Shown here piece after piece: positions 7,428 to 28,348 of a stretch of DNA of 64,000 nucleotides (position 1 is the first letter of the stretch; each line of letters begins with the position of its first letter). Source of the stretch: Natronomonas marina (GTDB lineage Archaea > Halobacteriota > Halobacteria > Halobacteriales > Haloarculaceae); the NCBI RefSeq assembly GCF_024298905.1, contig NZ_CP101154.1, forward strand, positions 2,108,001 through 2,172,000, read 5' to 3'. The notes beneath the pieces are model-generated. The model worked only from the letters and a program-made list of their open reading frames with translations, had not been told where the DNA came from and searched no databases. Made by a program: the position numbers and the translations under genes.

Positions 7428-7550
7428 ACCGACACACCACGCCCGTATCGGCTTAAATGTATACGGAGCGACCGGTCGACGCGGCGGGCGACTGCTGTGT
7501 CTTTTCTATTCCCCTTATTCACACCTATTACAGTATTGAGTGTACGAACA

Positions 7551-7594
7551 TGTGGTGTAGAAAGATTTAAATTCGATATACCACACCATTGTGG
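7551..7594 (+). promoter_or_regulatory. Candidate operator: TGTGGT/ACCACA dyad around TATA box, nadE promoter
   Basis: TGTGGT at 7551-7556 and its inverted copy ACCACA at 7580-7585 lie symmetrically around TTTAAA (7566-7571), the likely TATA element. A further TGTGG half-site at 7590-7594 forms CCACA-N4-TGTGG with the second. This is the geometry of a repressor that blocks TBP or transcription factor B access. The regulator is not identifiable from the sequence. Confidence 0.5.
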
Positions 7595-7610
7595 CGTGTT
7601 TAAAGAACAA

Positions 7611-7694
7611 ATGTCCGTAGAATCCGACGCGACTGGAACGGCCGATTTCGACCACCCGGTGCTGCACGTCTCGACCGACGACCACCGGGAATGA
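7611..7694 (+). CDS. 27-residue small ORF overlapping the start of nadE
   Basis: Starts at the first ATG downstream of the TTTAAAT promoter and encodes 27 residues, beginning MSVESDATGTADFDHPVL. Its stop overlaps the nadE start in an ATGA arrangement (nadE ATG at 7691-7693, TGA at 7692-7694), the classic layout for translational coupling. The composition is acidic, like real haloarchaeal proteins. It may be a leader peptide that sets nadE expression or a small protein in its own right. No homology could be tested. Confidence 0.55.
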   Translation: MSVESDATGTADFDHPVLHVSTDDHRE

Positions 7695-8563
7695 TAACCT
7701 CGGTCGAGGAGATCCCGGAACTCGCTTTCCGCACCGAGGAAAGCGAACTGGAGACGCTCCGTGCGGAGATCGTGTCGTTCCTCCGGGACCAGGTCGACGG
7801 GGCGGACGCCGACGGCGTCGTCGTCCCGGTGAGCGGAGGCATCGACTCGACGCTCTCGGCGCATCTCTGCGTCGAGGCTCTCGGCCCGGAGGCGGTGACG
7901 GCGCTCGTGTTGCCGTGTACGCTGACGGACGCGGAGAACACCATCGACGCCCAGTCGGTCGTCGAGCGCCTCGGTGTCGAGCCGACGAAGATCCAACTCC
8001 AGCCGATGCTCGACATGTTCGAGGACGCGGTGGCGCCGGAGATATCCGAGCAGGCGGACCGCCGGGCCATCGGCAACGTCATCGCCCGCCTGCGGATGGT
8101 CGTGGCCTACTACGCCGCGAACGTGACCGGCCGGCTGGTCTGTGGCACCTCGAACCGGACGGAACTCCTGCTCGGGTACTTCACGAAGCACGGTGACGGC
8201 GCCGCCGACATACGTCCCATCGCCGGTCTCTACAAGACCGAGGTCCGTGCGCTGGCGCGGCACCTCGACGTGCCGACCGACATCGTCGAGAAGACGCCGA
8301 CTGCGGGACTGTGGGCCGGACAGACCGACCGAAGGGAACTGGGCGCCCCGTACGGCCTGCTCGACGTTATCCTCCACGAACTCGTCGAGAACGACCTCGG
8401 CGTCGAGGGCACCGCCGCCACGCTGGGCGTCGACGAGTCGTTCGTCGCTCGCTACGCCCACCGCGTCCTCGAGAACGGCCACAAGCGCGAGCCGGTGCCG
8501 ACCCCGAACGGCGACCGAACCGGCGGCGACGCCCTCTTCTGCGAACTCGAGGGACGGGCCTGA
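7691..8563 (+). CDS. nadE: NAD+ synthase, ammonia-dependent
   Basis: 290 residues of the adenine-nucleotide alpha-hydrolase (PP-loop) fold. Visible are VPVSGGIDSTLSAHL (ATP pyrophosphate loop SGGxDS), the invariant CGTSNRTELLLGYFTKHGDG and IAGLYKTEVRALARHL, and TAGLWAGQTDRRELG. It adenylates nicotinate adenine dinucleotide and amidates it to NAD+. There is no N-terminal glutaminase domain, so it should use free ammonia. The start at 7691 overlaps the stop of the preceding 27-codon ORF; no other promoter is seen, so translation is probably coupled. It is typically essential in this lineage. Confidence 0.96.
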   Translation: MITSVEEIPELAFRTEESELETLRAEIVSFLRDQVDGADADGVVVPVSGGIDSTLSAHLCVEALGPEAVTALVLPCTLTDAENTIDAQSVVERLGVEPTKIQLQPMLDMFEDAVAPEISEQADRRAIGNVIARLRMVVAYYAANVTGRLVCGTSNRTELLLGYFTKHGDGAADIRPIAGLYKTEVRALARHLDVPTDIVEKTPTAGLWAGQTDRRELGAPYGLLDVILHELVENDLGVEGTAATLGVDESFVARYAHRVLENGHKREPVPTPNGDRTGGDALFCELEGRA

Positions 8564-8678
8564 GCGGCACCCTCCCGGGACGGAGACGGTCCCCGGCGTC
8601 GCCGGGTGGCTTTAACACTCTTTGTTCATCTCCGTCGGCTTGCTTACATTGATAAGGTCGGGGGCCGCAGGTCCGTCC

Positions 8679-9656
8679 ATGTCGATGCGAGCCATCGAGG
8701 TCACGGAGTACGGCGACGCCGACGCGCTGACGGTATCGGAAGCGGAGGTACCGGACCCCGGCGAGGGCCAGGTCCGTATCGAGGTCCGGGCGGCCGGCAT
8801 CAACTTCGCCGACATCATGCAGCGCCGCGGCCACTACCAGGGCGGTCCGAAGCCGCCCTACGTCCCCGGTATGGAGGTCGCAGGCGTCGTCGACGCCGTC
8901 GGCGAGGGGGTCAACCGCGAGGAGGGCGAGGCCGTCGTCTCGCTCGTCGAGGGGCGCGGGTACGCCGAGTACGCGCTGGCCGACGCGCGCGGCCTGCTCG
9001 ATATTCCCGGCGACATGAGCTTCGAGGAGGCCGCCGGCTTCCCCGTCCAGTGGCTCACCGCCCACAACTGCCTCCACGAGTGGGGCGGCCTCGAGGAAGG
9101 CGAGACGGTCCTCGTCCACGCCGCAGCGGGCGGTGTCGGCTCCGCGGCGGTCCAGTTGGCCGACGACGCCGGCGCGACGGTGCTCGGCACCGCCTCAACC
9201 CCCGAGAAACTCGAGATGGCCGCGGACCTGGGGATGGATCACGGCATCCGCTACACCGAGGAGGACTTCGTCGAACGGGTCGACGACATCACGGACGGCG
9301 AGGGTGTCGACCTCGTACTGGACGGCATCGGCGGCGAGACGACCGACCGGAGCCTCGACGCCCTGACATCCTTCGGCCGGATGGTCTCGTTCGGCGCGGC
9401 CGCCGGCGAACCCGGCCGGCCCAACACCGCCGACCTGCTGTTCGGCAACAAGACCGTCATCGGCTACCACCTCGGGCGCGCCATCGCCGAGAAGCCGATG
9501 CGCGTGATGGGCGCGGTGCCGGAGCTAACCCAGTTGCTCGGGGACGGCACCCTCGCGGTCCAGGTCGGCCACACCTTCGACCTCGAGGCCGCCGCCGAGG
9601 CCCACGAGTTCATCGAGGACCGCAACTCCTCCGGCAAGGTCGTGCTGATCCCGTAG
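8679..9656 (+). CDS. Quinone-oxidoreductase-like zinc-free medium-chain dehydrogenase
   Basis: 325 residues, MDR superfamily, quinone oxidoreductase (zeta-crystallin/QOR) subgroup: GroES-like N-terminal domain with GINFADIMQRRGHYQG and PYVPGMEVAGVVDAVGEGV, then a Rossmann domain with VHAAAGGVGSAAVQLA, and DLVLDGIGGETTDRSL. The zinc ligands of alcohol dehydrogenases are absent, as expected for QOR. It probably reduces quinones or enones with NAD(P)H. The ATG at 8679 is supported by the TATA-like CTTACATTGAT centred 28 bases upstream; upstream in-frame Met codons would lie in the promoter. Confidence 0.93.
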   Translation: MSMRAIEVTEYGDADALTVSEAEVPDPGEGQVRIEVRAAGINFADIMQRRGHYQGGPKPPYVPGMEVAGVVDAVGEGVNREEGEAVVSLVEGRGYAEYALADARGLLDIPGDMSFEEAAGFPVQWLTAHNCLHEWGGLEEGETVLVHAAAGGVGSAAVQLADDAGATVLGTASTPEKLEMAADLGMDHGIRYTEEDFVERVDDITDGEGVDLVLDGIGGETTDRSLDALTSFGRMVSFGAAAGEPGRPNTADLLFGNKTVIGYHLGRAIAEKPMRVMGAVPELTQLLGDGTLAVQVGHTFDLEAAAEAHEFIEDRNSSGKVVLIP

Positions 9657-22661: not shown

Positions 22662-23639
22662 TCAGTCGCGCTCGCCGGGACTGCCGACGCCGGGAATCGA
22701 GACGCGCGCCTCGAAGCGGCTCATCGCCACCGACAGCGTCAGCACCAGCGCCAGGTAGAGTATCGCGACCCACAGGTAGATGTCGATGACCCGTATCGTG
22801 TCCGAGGCGATGCTGTCGGCGCGTTTGAACAGTTCCGTGACCGCGATGAACGCCGCCAGCGAGGAGTACTTGACGAGGTAGACGAGTTCGTTCGTCCACC
22901 CCGGGATGGCGTAGCGGAGTCCCTGCGGCAGGATGACGTGACGGATGCTCTCCAGGCGGGAGAGTCCGACCGACCTGGCGGCGGTCATCTGCCCCGACTC
23001 GACGGACTGCAGCGCCGACCGGATGTACTCGGCCTGGTAGGCGCTGCTGTTGATGGTGAACCCGATGACGGCGACCCAGACGGCGGCACGCGGGACGATT
23101 CCGGTGCCGACGCCGGGCACGAGACGGACGACCTGCGAAGTCGGCAGCCCGAAGTACAGCACGAACAGCTGTGCGAGAAGCGGCGTCCCACGGAGGAGTT
23201 CGGTGTAGGTCAGCGCAACCCACCGCGAGACCGCGCCGCCGTAGGTCCGGGCGACCGCGAGCGGGACGGCGATGACCAGCCCCAGCAGTATCGACAGCAC
23301 GGTCAACAGGACGGTGAGCCTGGCGCCGGTGGCGAGTTCCGGCATGACGCTCATCCCGAAGGCGAGGAAGTCGAAGAGACCCGCGAGCGTGCCGTAGACG
23401 CCGGCCAGCGGCCCGCCGCCGGCCGCCAGTTTCTCCAGGCTGGCGGCGCCATTCGCGAATATCTCCGGCGGGACGAACGGCTCGCGGTCGCTGGTGTTGA
23501 CGCCGGGCGCGACGAAGAGGTCGTGGGTCCAGCGAACCAGGAGCCATCCCCAGAAGACGACGCCGACGGCGAACAACAGCAGCCGTCGCGTGCCCGGAAT
23601 CTCGCCCAACTCGACGCCGCGGACCGTCCGCTCGCTCAT
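22662..23639 (-). CDS. Polar amino-acid ABC transporter permease with long N-terminal extension
   Basis: 325 residues, about 80 longer than the partner permease. The first ~110 residues are unusual: a membrane helix (LLLFAVGVVFWGWLLVRW) and an extracytoplasmic segment, then the HisM/GlnP permease domain with TVLLTVLSILLGLVIAV, the EAA-type loop RSVGLSRLESIRHVILPQG and SIASDTIRVIDIYLWV. It forms the membrane channel with the second permease. Its start overlaps the stop of the ATPase gene by four bases (ATGA), so translation is coupled. It ends immediately at the rfcL stop on the other strand. Confidence 0.93.
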   Translation of the reverse strand: MSERTVRGVELGEIPGTRRLLLFAVGVVFWGWLLVRWTHDLFVAPGVNTSDREPFVPPEIFANGAASLEKLAAGGGPLAGVYGTLAGLFDFLAFGMSVMPELATGARLTVLLTVLSILLGLVIAVPLAVARTYGGAVSRWVALTYTELLRGTPLLAQLFVLYFGLPTSQVVRLVPGVGTGIVPRAAVWVAVIGFTINSSAYQAEYIRSALQSVESGQMTAARSVGLSRLESIRHVILPQGLRYAIPGWTNELVYLVKYSSLAAFIAVTELFKRADSIASDTIRVIDIYLWVAILYLALVLTLSVAMSRFEARVSIPGVGSPGERD

Positions 23640-24364
23640 GCGTCCAACTCGCCGAGGAACTGGCGGGTTCGTTCGTTCTCCGGGCGCTCGAAGAGCTGTT
23701 CGGGCGGTCCCCGCTCGGCGACGACGCCGTCGTCGAGGAAGGTGATGGTGTCGGCGACCGACCGGGCGAAACTCATCTCGTGGGTGACGACGAGCATCGT
23801 CATGCCCTCGTCGGCCAGGTCGAACATCACGTCGAGCACCTCGCCGATGAGTTCGGGGTCGAGCGCGCTCGTCGGCTCGTCGAACAGGAGCAGTTCCGGC
23901 TCCATCGCCAGCGCCCGGGCGATGCCGACGCGCTGTTTCTGCCCGCCCGACAGCTCCGCCGGGTAGGAGTCGGCCTGCTCGGCCATGCCGACCCGGGCGA
24001 GGTTCTCCTCGGCGAGCGAACGGGCCGCCTCCGCACCCATCCCCCGGACCTTCCGGAGACCGAGCGTCACGTTACCCAGCGCCGTGCGGTGGGCGAACAG
24101 GTTGAACCCCTGGAACACCATCCCGACGCGCCGCCGAAGGTCGTCGACGTCCATCTCGTAGACGGACTCGCCGTCCAGGCGGATGTCGCCGTCGTCGATG
24201 TCGGTGAGCCGGTTGACACACCGGAGCAGCGTCGACTTGCCGCTCCCGCTGGGGCCGACCACCACCTCGACGTCGGTGCGGTCCATCCCGTAGCTGATGC
24301 CCTTGAGCACCTCCTCCTCCCCGAAGGACTTGTACACGTCGTCGAACTCGAGCAGTCGGCTCAC
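23636..24364 (-). CDS. Polar amino-acid ABC transporter ATP-binding protein
   Basis: 242 residues, a complete GlnQ/HisP-type ATPase: Walker A VGPSGSGKSTLLRCVNRL, Q-loop VGMVFQGFNLFAHRT, signature LSGGQKQRVGIARALAMEP, Walker B LLLFDEPTSALDPEL, and the H-loop MLVVTHEMSFARSVAD. It powers uptake of one or more amino acids. The gene lies between two permease genes, one base from the upstream permease and overlapping the next. Confidence 0.97.
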   Translation of the reverse strand: MSRLLEFDDVYKSFGEEEVLKGISYGMDRTDVEVVVGPSGSGKSTLLRCVNRLTDIDDGDIRLDGESVYEMDVDDLRRRVGMVFQGFNLFAHRTALGNVTLGLRKVRGMGAEAARSLAEENLARVGMAEQADSYPAELSGGQKQRVGIARALAMEPELLLFDEPTSALDPELIGEVLDVMFDLADEGMTMLVVTHEMSFARSVADTITFLDDGVVAERGPPEQLFERPENERTRQFLGELDA

Positions 24365-24365
24365 G

Positions 24366-25103
24366 TCAGGACTCCCCCGTCGGTACCGCGTACCGCGCTT
24401 CGAGTCGGTCGAGCGCCCGGTTCGTCGTGAACGTCAGCACGAAGTAGATTGCGCTGATTGCGATGATGACCTCGGCGACGGCCTCCACGTCGGGGCGGAG
24501 GAACAGCTGGTACCCCCGGTACAGGAGCTCCCCGAGACCGATGGCGAAGGCGATGCTCGTGTCCTTCAGCACGATGGTGAACTCGTTTTGGAACCCCGGA
24601 ATCGACCGCCGAAGCGCCTGCGGGAAGACGACGTGGCGGACCGCTTCGAGCTTCGAGAGTCCGACCGAGCGGGCGGCCTCGATTTGTCCCTCGTCGATGC
24701 TCTGGATGGCGCCACGGAACACCTGCGACTGGTAGGCGGCGCTCCGGAAACCCAGCGCGGCCGTCGCCGCCAGGAGCGCCTGGCCGTTGATTTCGAACCG
24801 GTCGACGAGCAGCCACCCACCGAGACCGACGCTCCCGATGTCGGGCCAGGGGATGCCGAAGAAGAACAGCACGATGAGGACGACGATGGGCGTCCCGCGG
24901 AGCAGCACGCCGGCACCGCGAACCAGCGAGTGGAGCAGACCGTCGCCGTACACCTCGGTGGCCCCGGCGGGGAACCCGGCCAGGAACCCGAGCGCGAGGC
25001 TCCCGACGGTGAGAAGCACCGTCACGTAGAGCCCCTGTGCGAGCACCCACCAGTTGTCGGCGACGACCGCCCAGTCGCTCGCCTGTAGCGGTGCGAACTC
25101 CAT
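24366..25103 (-). CDS. Polar amino-acid ABC transporter permease
   Basis: 245 residues with five or six hydrophobic helices, of the standard HisM/GlnP length. It contains the EAA loop RSVGLSKLEAVRHVVFPQA, RGTPIVVLIVLFFFGIPW, and the C-terminal FVLTFTTNRALDRLEARY. It pairs with the 325-residue permease as the channel. The start is seven bases after the end of the binding-protein gene; the run of four genes is one operon. Confidence 0.95.
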   Translation of the reverse strand: MEFAPLQASDWAVVADNWWVLAQGLYVTVLLTVGSLALGFLAGFPAGATEVYGDGLLHSLVRGAGVLLRGTPIVVLIVLFFFGIPWPDIGSVGLGGWLLVDRFEINGQALLAATAALGFRSAAYQSQVFRGAIQSIDEGQIEAARSVGLSKLEAVRHVVFPQALRRSIPGFQNEFTIVLKDTSIAFAIGLGELLYRGYQLFLRPDVEAVAEVIIAISAIYFVLTFTTNRALDRLEARYAVPTGES

Positions 25104-25110
25104 CGGGCGA

Positions 25111-25950
25111 TTACCGCTGTGCGAAGTTCTCGGCGACGGGCACGTCGATGATGACGGCGTCGATGTTGCCGCTCTCGAGGTCGTTGACGGCGAGTTCGTA
25201 GTTGTCGTAGGTCCGCTTGTTGTCCTCGGCGATGATGCCGTCCTCGATGAGTTTGTCGACCTCGTCCTCGCCGGTGGTACCGCTCTGGGCGCCGACGACG
25301 CGGCCCTCCAGGTCCTCGCGGCTCTCCGGGCTGAAGTCCCCGTCCGACTGGACCAGGACGCCCTGGTTCGCCTCGTAGTAGGGGTTCGAGAAGTTTATCT
25401 GCTCGTCGCGCTCCTCGGTGATGGTCATCGCCGCCGCGATGAGGTCGATGTTGCCGTCCCGGAGCGCGGGGATGAGGCTGTTGAACTCGAAGGTCTCGAA
25501 GCCGCCGAACTCGTAGTCGGTCCGGGCGACGACCGCCTCGGTCAACTCCACGTCGAACCCGACCAGTTGTCCCTCGTCGTTGTTGAACTCGAAGGGCGCG
25601 AATCCGGGGGCGGTGCCGGCGACGATGGTGCCGGCACCGGTTCCGCCGTCGGCGCCCTCGGTGACGTCGCCGGCGTCCTCGCCGGAGCCGAAGTACTCCT
25701 CGATGAGCGAGTCGTAGACGCCGTCGTCCCGGACCGCCTGCAGGCCGGCGTTGACGGCCTCCAGTCTGGCGCTGTCGTCCTCGCGGACGCCGAGTCCGTA
25801 CTGCTCGCCGGTCTGGATTGTGAAGGCGACTTCGACCCCACCGCCCCCGTTGCCGCCGTTGCCCATACAGCCAGCGATCCCGAGCGCCAGACCACCAGCG
25901 CCGACCGTCTTCAGGTACGCACGACGGTCCACGTCGAATTCGCGTGCCAT
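25111..25950 (-). CDS. Amino-acid ABC transporter substrate-binding lipoprotein, apparently circularly permuted
   Basis: 279 residues. The N-terminus is a Tat-type signal (RRAYLKTVGAG) with a lipobox ending GIAGC at Cys28. The standard order of the family is TIVAGTAPGFAPFEF, then ALRDGNIDLIAAAMT, VVGAQSGTTGEDEVD and finally a C-terminal block with VAFTIQTGEQYGLGV and NAGLQAVRDDGVYDSL. Here that last block is at residues 39-88, directly after the lipobox, joined by a Gly/Asp/Glu linker (89-104) to the N-terminal strand, and the protein ends at VPVAENFAQR, exactly where it is missing. It should still bind a polar amino acid outside the membrane. A TATA-like TTAAAACGG lies about 27 bases upstream of the start. 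Confidence 0.92.
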   Translation of the reverse strand: MAREFDVDRRAYLKTVGAGGLALGIAGCMGNGGNGGGGVEVAFTIQTGEQYGLGVREDDSARLEAVNAGLQAVRDDGVYDSLIEEYFGSGEDAGDVTEGADGGTGAGTIVAGTAPGFAPFEFNNDEGQLVGFDVELTEAVVARTDYEFGGFETFEFNSLIPALRDGNIDLIAAAMTITEERDEQINFSNPYYEANQGVLVQSDGDFSPESREDLEGRVVGAQSGTTGEDEVDKLIEDGIIAEDNKRTYDNYELAVNDLESGNIDAVIIDVPVAENFAQR

Positions 25951-26092
25951 ACCCGTGTGCTTGGGTGAACTCCGTTTTAACCTTTCGACCGACGCCGGGC
26001 AAATGCGGCGGAACGGAACGACTCGGACGCTTTGTCGGTCGTTCGACCAGCGACTCGCAGCCGAACCGGACGAATGAAGAATATCGCCGGCG

Positions 26093-28348
<2,256 letters not shown>

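Follow-up and report, generated by a model that had tools for sequence, protein, structure and literature searches.

A circularly permuted substrate-binding lipoprotein gene inherited within one clade of Natronomonas

The transporter locus and the order of the protein parts

The 64,000-nucleotide stretch of the Natronomonas marina genome that was analysed (the window) contains, at 25111..25950 (-), a whole gene encoding a circularly permuted SBP_bac_3 lipoprotein of 279 amino acids. The three genes that follow it encode a GlnP/HisQ-like ABC permease (BPD_transp_1; 24366..25103 (-)), located 7 bp past the stop codon of the binding protein gene, a GlnQ-like ABC ATPase (23636..24364 (-)) and a second, GlnP/cystine-permease-like, BPD_transp_1 permease (22662..23639 (-)) that has an N-terminal extension of ~95 amino acids. 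Both permeases have HEQRo_perm_3TM matches above the cut-off; none of the NCBIfam models reaches its cut-off with the binding protein. The upstream gene, maeB (26093..28348 (-)), encodes a malic enzyme-PTA hybrid and lies outside the transporter, providing a syntenic marker.

Residues 1 to 29 of the binding protein (25864..25950 (-)), delimited from the sequence and by alignment with orthologues, constitute a signal peptide with a lipobox. With RR at positions 9-10, and an AGC lipobox in which Cys28 would be the lipidated residue, the sequence pattern predicts export of the Tat type. A Gly/Asn spacer (residues 30-38; 25837..25863 (-)), the length of which differs among permuted orthologues, separates the lipobox from a block that runs from VEVAFTIQTGEQYGLGV to YDSLIEEYFG (residues 39-88; 25687..25836 (-)) and that, in other family members, is the C-terminal block of the domain. 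The initial annotation had placed this block directly after the lipobox region, as the Pfam and phmmer matches described below confirm, and its limits in the DNA (25836-25687) are retained; the first residue, 39, is however that of VEVAF, slightly before the VAFTIQ quoted originally. An acidic, Gly-containing linker of 20 residues (89-108; 25627..25686 (-)) then joins what were originally the C- and N-termini, and leads into the remaining part of the domain (residues 109-279; 25114..25626 (-)), namely the N-terminal part of lobe 1, the first hinge and lobe 2. The acidic/Gly stretch is followed by GTIVAGTAPGF, and the chain ends at NFAQR, so that the 279-codon ORF stops, as first described, where the displaced block would normally start.

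The profile for this family, PF00497, matches the encoded protein in two inverted pieces. Residues 109-248 correspond to profile positions 1-106, and a profile search of the genome aligned the DNA for the upstream piece with positions 97-131. The same inversion is seen with phmmer against the closest solved relative, AncQR (PDB 4zv1), in which residues 107-275 align with chain positions 10-173 and residues 34-88 with positions 178-232. When the sequence was rotated, by placing residues 39-88 after residues 105-279, PF00497 matched once, without a break (1-131/132), 4zv1 aligned without interruption over positions 10-232, and the PF00497 score was 118.8 bits versus 113.9 bits for the protein as encoded, with a gathering cut-off of 26.4 bits. 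A collinear full-length PF00497 domain is therefore absent as encoded and present only after rotation. The displaced block is up to 60% identical to the corresponding region of ordinary-order homologues, with E-values down to 2e-16, and because of these strong matches, and the recurrence of the same order in five more genomes, a chance match can be dismissed. The gene is a clean circular permutation in which no part of the domain has been lost, and rotation restores the standard family match, as the initial reading had proposed.

Distribution and inheritance of the permuted order

In addition to the window, the permuted order is present in five independently assembled genomes from the same genus (loci L006-L010, genes L014-L018). 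All five homologues align over the full length of the window protein (residues 1-279) with 77-81% identity and have the same junctions, so that the relatives with this order that the initial annotation had suggested seeking do exist, giving six genomes in all that belong to one clade. The ordinary order was found in all 45 other distinct haloarchaeal homologues with loci that were inspected, including those in sister genomes of the same genus. An order-wide search gave a strong match in 153 of 392 genomes, with full-length matches of the permuted type only in the Natronomonas clade. No other permuted gene was detected when 295 genomes from the phylum were searched with the junction piece, and no independent permutation was found in plasmids; these order, phylum and plasmid searches favour close homologues, and the full check of block order applies to the fetched loci. 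One other near-full-length match, in genome G297 (L055), has the ordinary order on inspection.

In a tree constructed from de-rotated binding protein sequences, the six permuted proteins form one clade (support 100/97), with the ordinary-order protein from G017 as its sister (96/95), consistent with one change. The same six-genome clade is recovered in the maeB tree (98) and in the tree based on the permease plus ATPase (99). The permutation has a single origin, ancestral to one clade of Natronomonas.

A join of two gene fragments in the wrong order, during assembly or binning, might be considered, given that the five other permuted genomes are apparently metagenome bins. The same order and junctions are, however, present in six assemblies that differ by up to ~20% at the DNA level, the window genome consists of two contigs and is 99.98% complete, and the frame is open throughout with a dN/dS well below 1; the probability of such an artefact is negligible. 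Since the permuted order recurs in six assemblies, this is a true, inherited evolutionary rearrangement and not an error. The initial annotation had anticipated that the ordinary order in close species, together with evidence of misassembly, would speak against a permutation. The ordinary form does occupy this locus in sister species, but finding the permuted one in six assemblies effectively excludes misassembly.

The surrounding gene order, a haem-synthase-like gene, maeB, the binding protein gene, permease, ATPase, permease and rfcL, is common to the permuted genomes and to ordinary Natronomonas. An ordinary orthologue is present in Natronomonas gomsonensis (L012). Both the signal peptide and a conserved stretch immediately preceding the start codon have been kept in the permuted genes, in which no more than about a dozen bases separate the new stop codon from the start of the downstream permease gene. 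The motif GTCGAAAnnTTnAAA, at 25974-25989 (-) in the window, is located upstream of the start codon of the binding protein gene and also precedes this gene in L006-L008, L012 and L066, and so is found in both permuted and ordinary genomes; it is possibly a promoter or a regulator site for the operon. The ~95-residue extension of the second permease likely adds a membrane helix ahead of the usual 3TM domain, and tblastn coverage suggests that it is also present in ordinary genomes.

Selection, predicted structure and membrane anchoring

Pairwise dN/dS values for the whole gene range from 0.17 to 0.39, there are zero stops or frameshifts in the six permuted species, and the permuted gene is under purifying selection. 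Of the 35 N-block positions conserved in the family, all six permuted proteins retain 31, and of the 8 such C-block positions they retain 5. When the six proteins are aligned, 17 of 20 linker columns are invariant, whereas the post-lipobox spacer has 6 of 13, the displaced block 23 of 50 and the remaining sequence 112 of 171. Ordinary homologues have, ahead of the domain, a tether of low complexity that varies in length. The conserved linker is now presumably a structural loop that joins the old ends. Values of dS for the linker (25627-25686 (-) in the window, and the equivalent regions of L006-L010) are mostly 0.07-0.3 versus ~0.4-0.6 gene-wide which, with only 19 codons, hints at a possible constraint at the DNA or RNA level, or at chance.

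The ratio of C-block to N-block distance has a median of 1.82 for permuted pairs as compared with 1.12 (maximum 1.71) for 712 ordinary pairs. As the pairs are not independent, this only suggests that, when scaled to the remainder of the protein, the displaced block diverges more rapidly than its counterpart in ordinary homologues, which could reflect a relaxed constraint on the block. This raised divergence, and the low confidence of the AlphaFold model described below, would also be consistent with a gene decaying after the rearrangement, with the transporter then served by another binding protein. We consider this very improbable: the dN/dS values and intact frames argue against it, as do the conservation of the linker and of the operon with the permeases and ATPase, and a profile search of the 99.98%-complete window genome identified no second SBP_bac_3 protein, making the permuted gene the only one. 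Assembly error and a pseudogene are thus effectively excluded, the former by the six assemblies and the latter by the dN/dS values and intact frames.

In a model of the ordinary orthologue, the cut falls between a helix (217-226) and a strand (229-235). In the Type II layout known from the GlnBP and LAO structures, this site lies inside lobe 2, just ahead of the second hinge crossing. On the ordinary-order model, residues 39-88 correspond to the last strand of lobe 2, the second crossing of the hinge, a strand of lobe 1 and the two terminal helices. Given that the new ends would lie in lobe 2, the lipidated N-terminus is predicted to emerge from lobe 2, and the lipid anchor has probably shifted to lobe 2 from lobe 1. 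The suggestion in the initial annotation that anchoring might be changed can thus be refined to a probable switch of lobe. The number of hinge crossings is predicted to be unchanged. AlphaFold modelling of the permuted chain with an 11-row alignment gave a pLDDT of 53.8 and pTM of 0.47, with PDB matches at a TM of about 0.3-0.4, and the elements of secondary structure appear in the expected order in this model. With a similarly thin alignment, the ordinary orthologue gave a pLDDT of 70.5, pTM of 0.64 and TM of up to 0.78. The poor model of the permuted chain, put down to the shallow alignment, leaves the Type II fold a prediction but is not counted against it.

The gene very probably encodes a functional substrate-binding lipoprotein of a family 3, polar-amino-acid ABC importer that was permuted once and has been maintained by selection, with its fold and function as predictions. 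The chain would fold as an ordinary two-lobed, Type II 'Venus flytrap' in which the 20-residue linker would connect the former C-terminus to the former N-terminus on lobe 1, with the binding residues and two hinge crossings retained. The flytrap would close on a polar amino acid and pass it to the heterodimeric permease encoded by the neighbouring genes, and the lipid tether would be attached to lobe 2 rather than to lobe 1. It is conceivable, but rather doubtful, that, with the tether now holding lobe 2 to the membrane, the conserved linker on lobe 1 has become a site of functional contact, either with the permease or from lobe to lobe, and that the permease interface has been re-tuned accordingly. 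If the permutation has changed function in this way, the clade represents a recent natural experiment on the geometry of anchoring in ABC import.

The displaced block might, alternatively, be swapped between two chains, forming an obligate dimer. The arginine-binding protein of T. maritima (ArgBP), whose sequence is closely related and for which structures have been solved, swaps its C-terminal helix, which can then pack against a second chain (PMC4022495). A portion of this C-terminal element can thus pack without its native connectivity, although the swap is interchain and the gene order is ordinary, and the element therefore tolerates a changed connectivity. The constant-length 20-residue linker should, however, give the block enough reach to pack in cis, and a monomer is presumably the norm in this family, making an obligate swapped dimer improbable.

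Related systems and the proposed origin

The permuted protein belongs to the same sequence family as the Type II binding proteins of family 3 (PF00497), such as T. maritima ArgBP and LAO/HisJ/GlnH. It has the same domain content as these proteins, the same lipoprotein type of export and the same type of operon, and it has largely kept the positions conserved in this family. It differs from the members examined, in which the block is C-terminal, in having the block N-terminal, ends in lobe 2 and the 20-residue linker. Most natural circular permutations come to light in comparisons of distant relatives that diverged long ago. In Natronomonas, a single genus, the permuted form and the ordinary one are orthologous and share a locus, and the cost and consequences of permutation should therefore be testable with native partners.

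The open-access literature yielded no report of a natural permutation in family 3 or in Type II binding proteins, in accord with the initial annotation, which knew of no natural example in this family; there is one in a different class. TpMglB-2 (Tp0684) of Treponema pallidum is a naturally circularly permuted, lipid-anchored, Type I glucose-binding protein that binds its ligand and changes conformation, in which the first three strands of the N-lobe have been relocated to the C-terminal end, with the gain of a fourth hinge crossing (PMC4990184). Permutations of this type are present in many treponemes and Gram-positive bacteria, and the authors proposed the designation 'Type Ic' ('Cluster Bc') and speculated that the permutation might suit membrane anchoring (PMC4990184). 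Both cases are natural permutations of a membrane-anchored ABC substrate-binding lipoprotein, with ligand binding kept in TpMglB-2. The Natronomonas protein differs from TpMglB-2 (Type I, cluster B) in fold class, cut site and direction of the rearrangement, and ordinary orthologues persist at the same locus in sister species. As it matches family 3 (Type II) and not the sugar-binding families, it falls outside Type Ic and Cluster Bc. Natural permutation of ABC binding proteins is thereby extended from one sugar-binding (Type I) group to an amino-acid (Type II) family, and the clade offers a natural test of whether the choice of the lobe tied to the membrane matters.

The permuted gene likely originated by duplication, fusion and truncation, a route favoured over relocation of the tail. 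A tandem duplication would have been followed by an in-frame fusion of the two copies, after which copy 1 would have lost its front part beyond the signal peptide, and copy 2 its tail. The analysis turned up no fused tandem intermediate, but a precedent is provided by the order of SBD1 and SBD2 in GlnPQ (PDB 6h30; GlnP of Enterococcus and Lactococcus), where the SBD1 C-block, a linker and the SBD2 N-block follow each other in the same order as in the permuted protein. GlnPQ differs in having two whole domains fused to the permease, with no truncation.

It is quite possible, if not the favoured explanation, that the 150-bp tail was instead cut from the end of the gene and pasted into the lipobox spacer, giving a protein that works identically. 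The present spacer (about 10 amino acids) and linker (20 amino acids) together approximate one ordinary post-lipobox spacer (about 27-32 amino acids in L012 and L019), and such a move would have left the promoter region and signal peptide in place. Duplication is, however, one of the two main documented routes to protein permutation (PMC3320104), and genome G018 has two adjacent ordinary-order copies of the gene (L067, about 7454-7969 and 8369-9118), a tandem duplication at the same locus, although the second copy, with an N-block identity of only ~43% to the window protein, is too diverged to be a direct intermediate.
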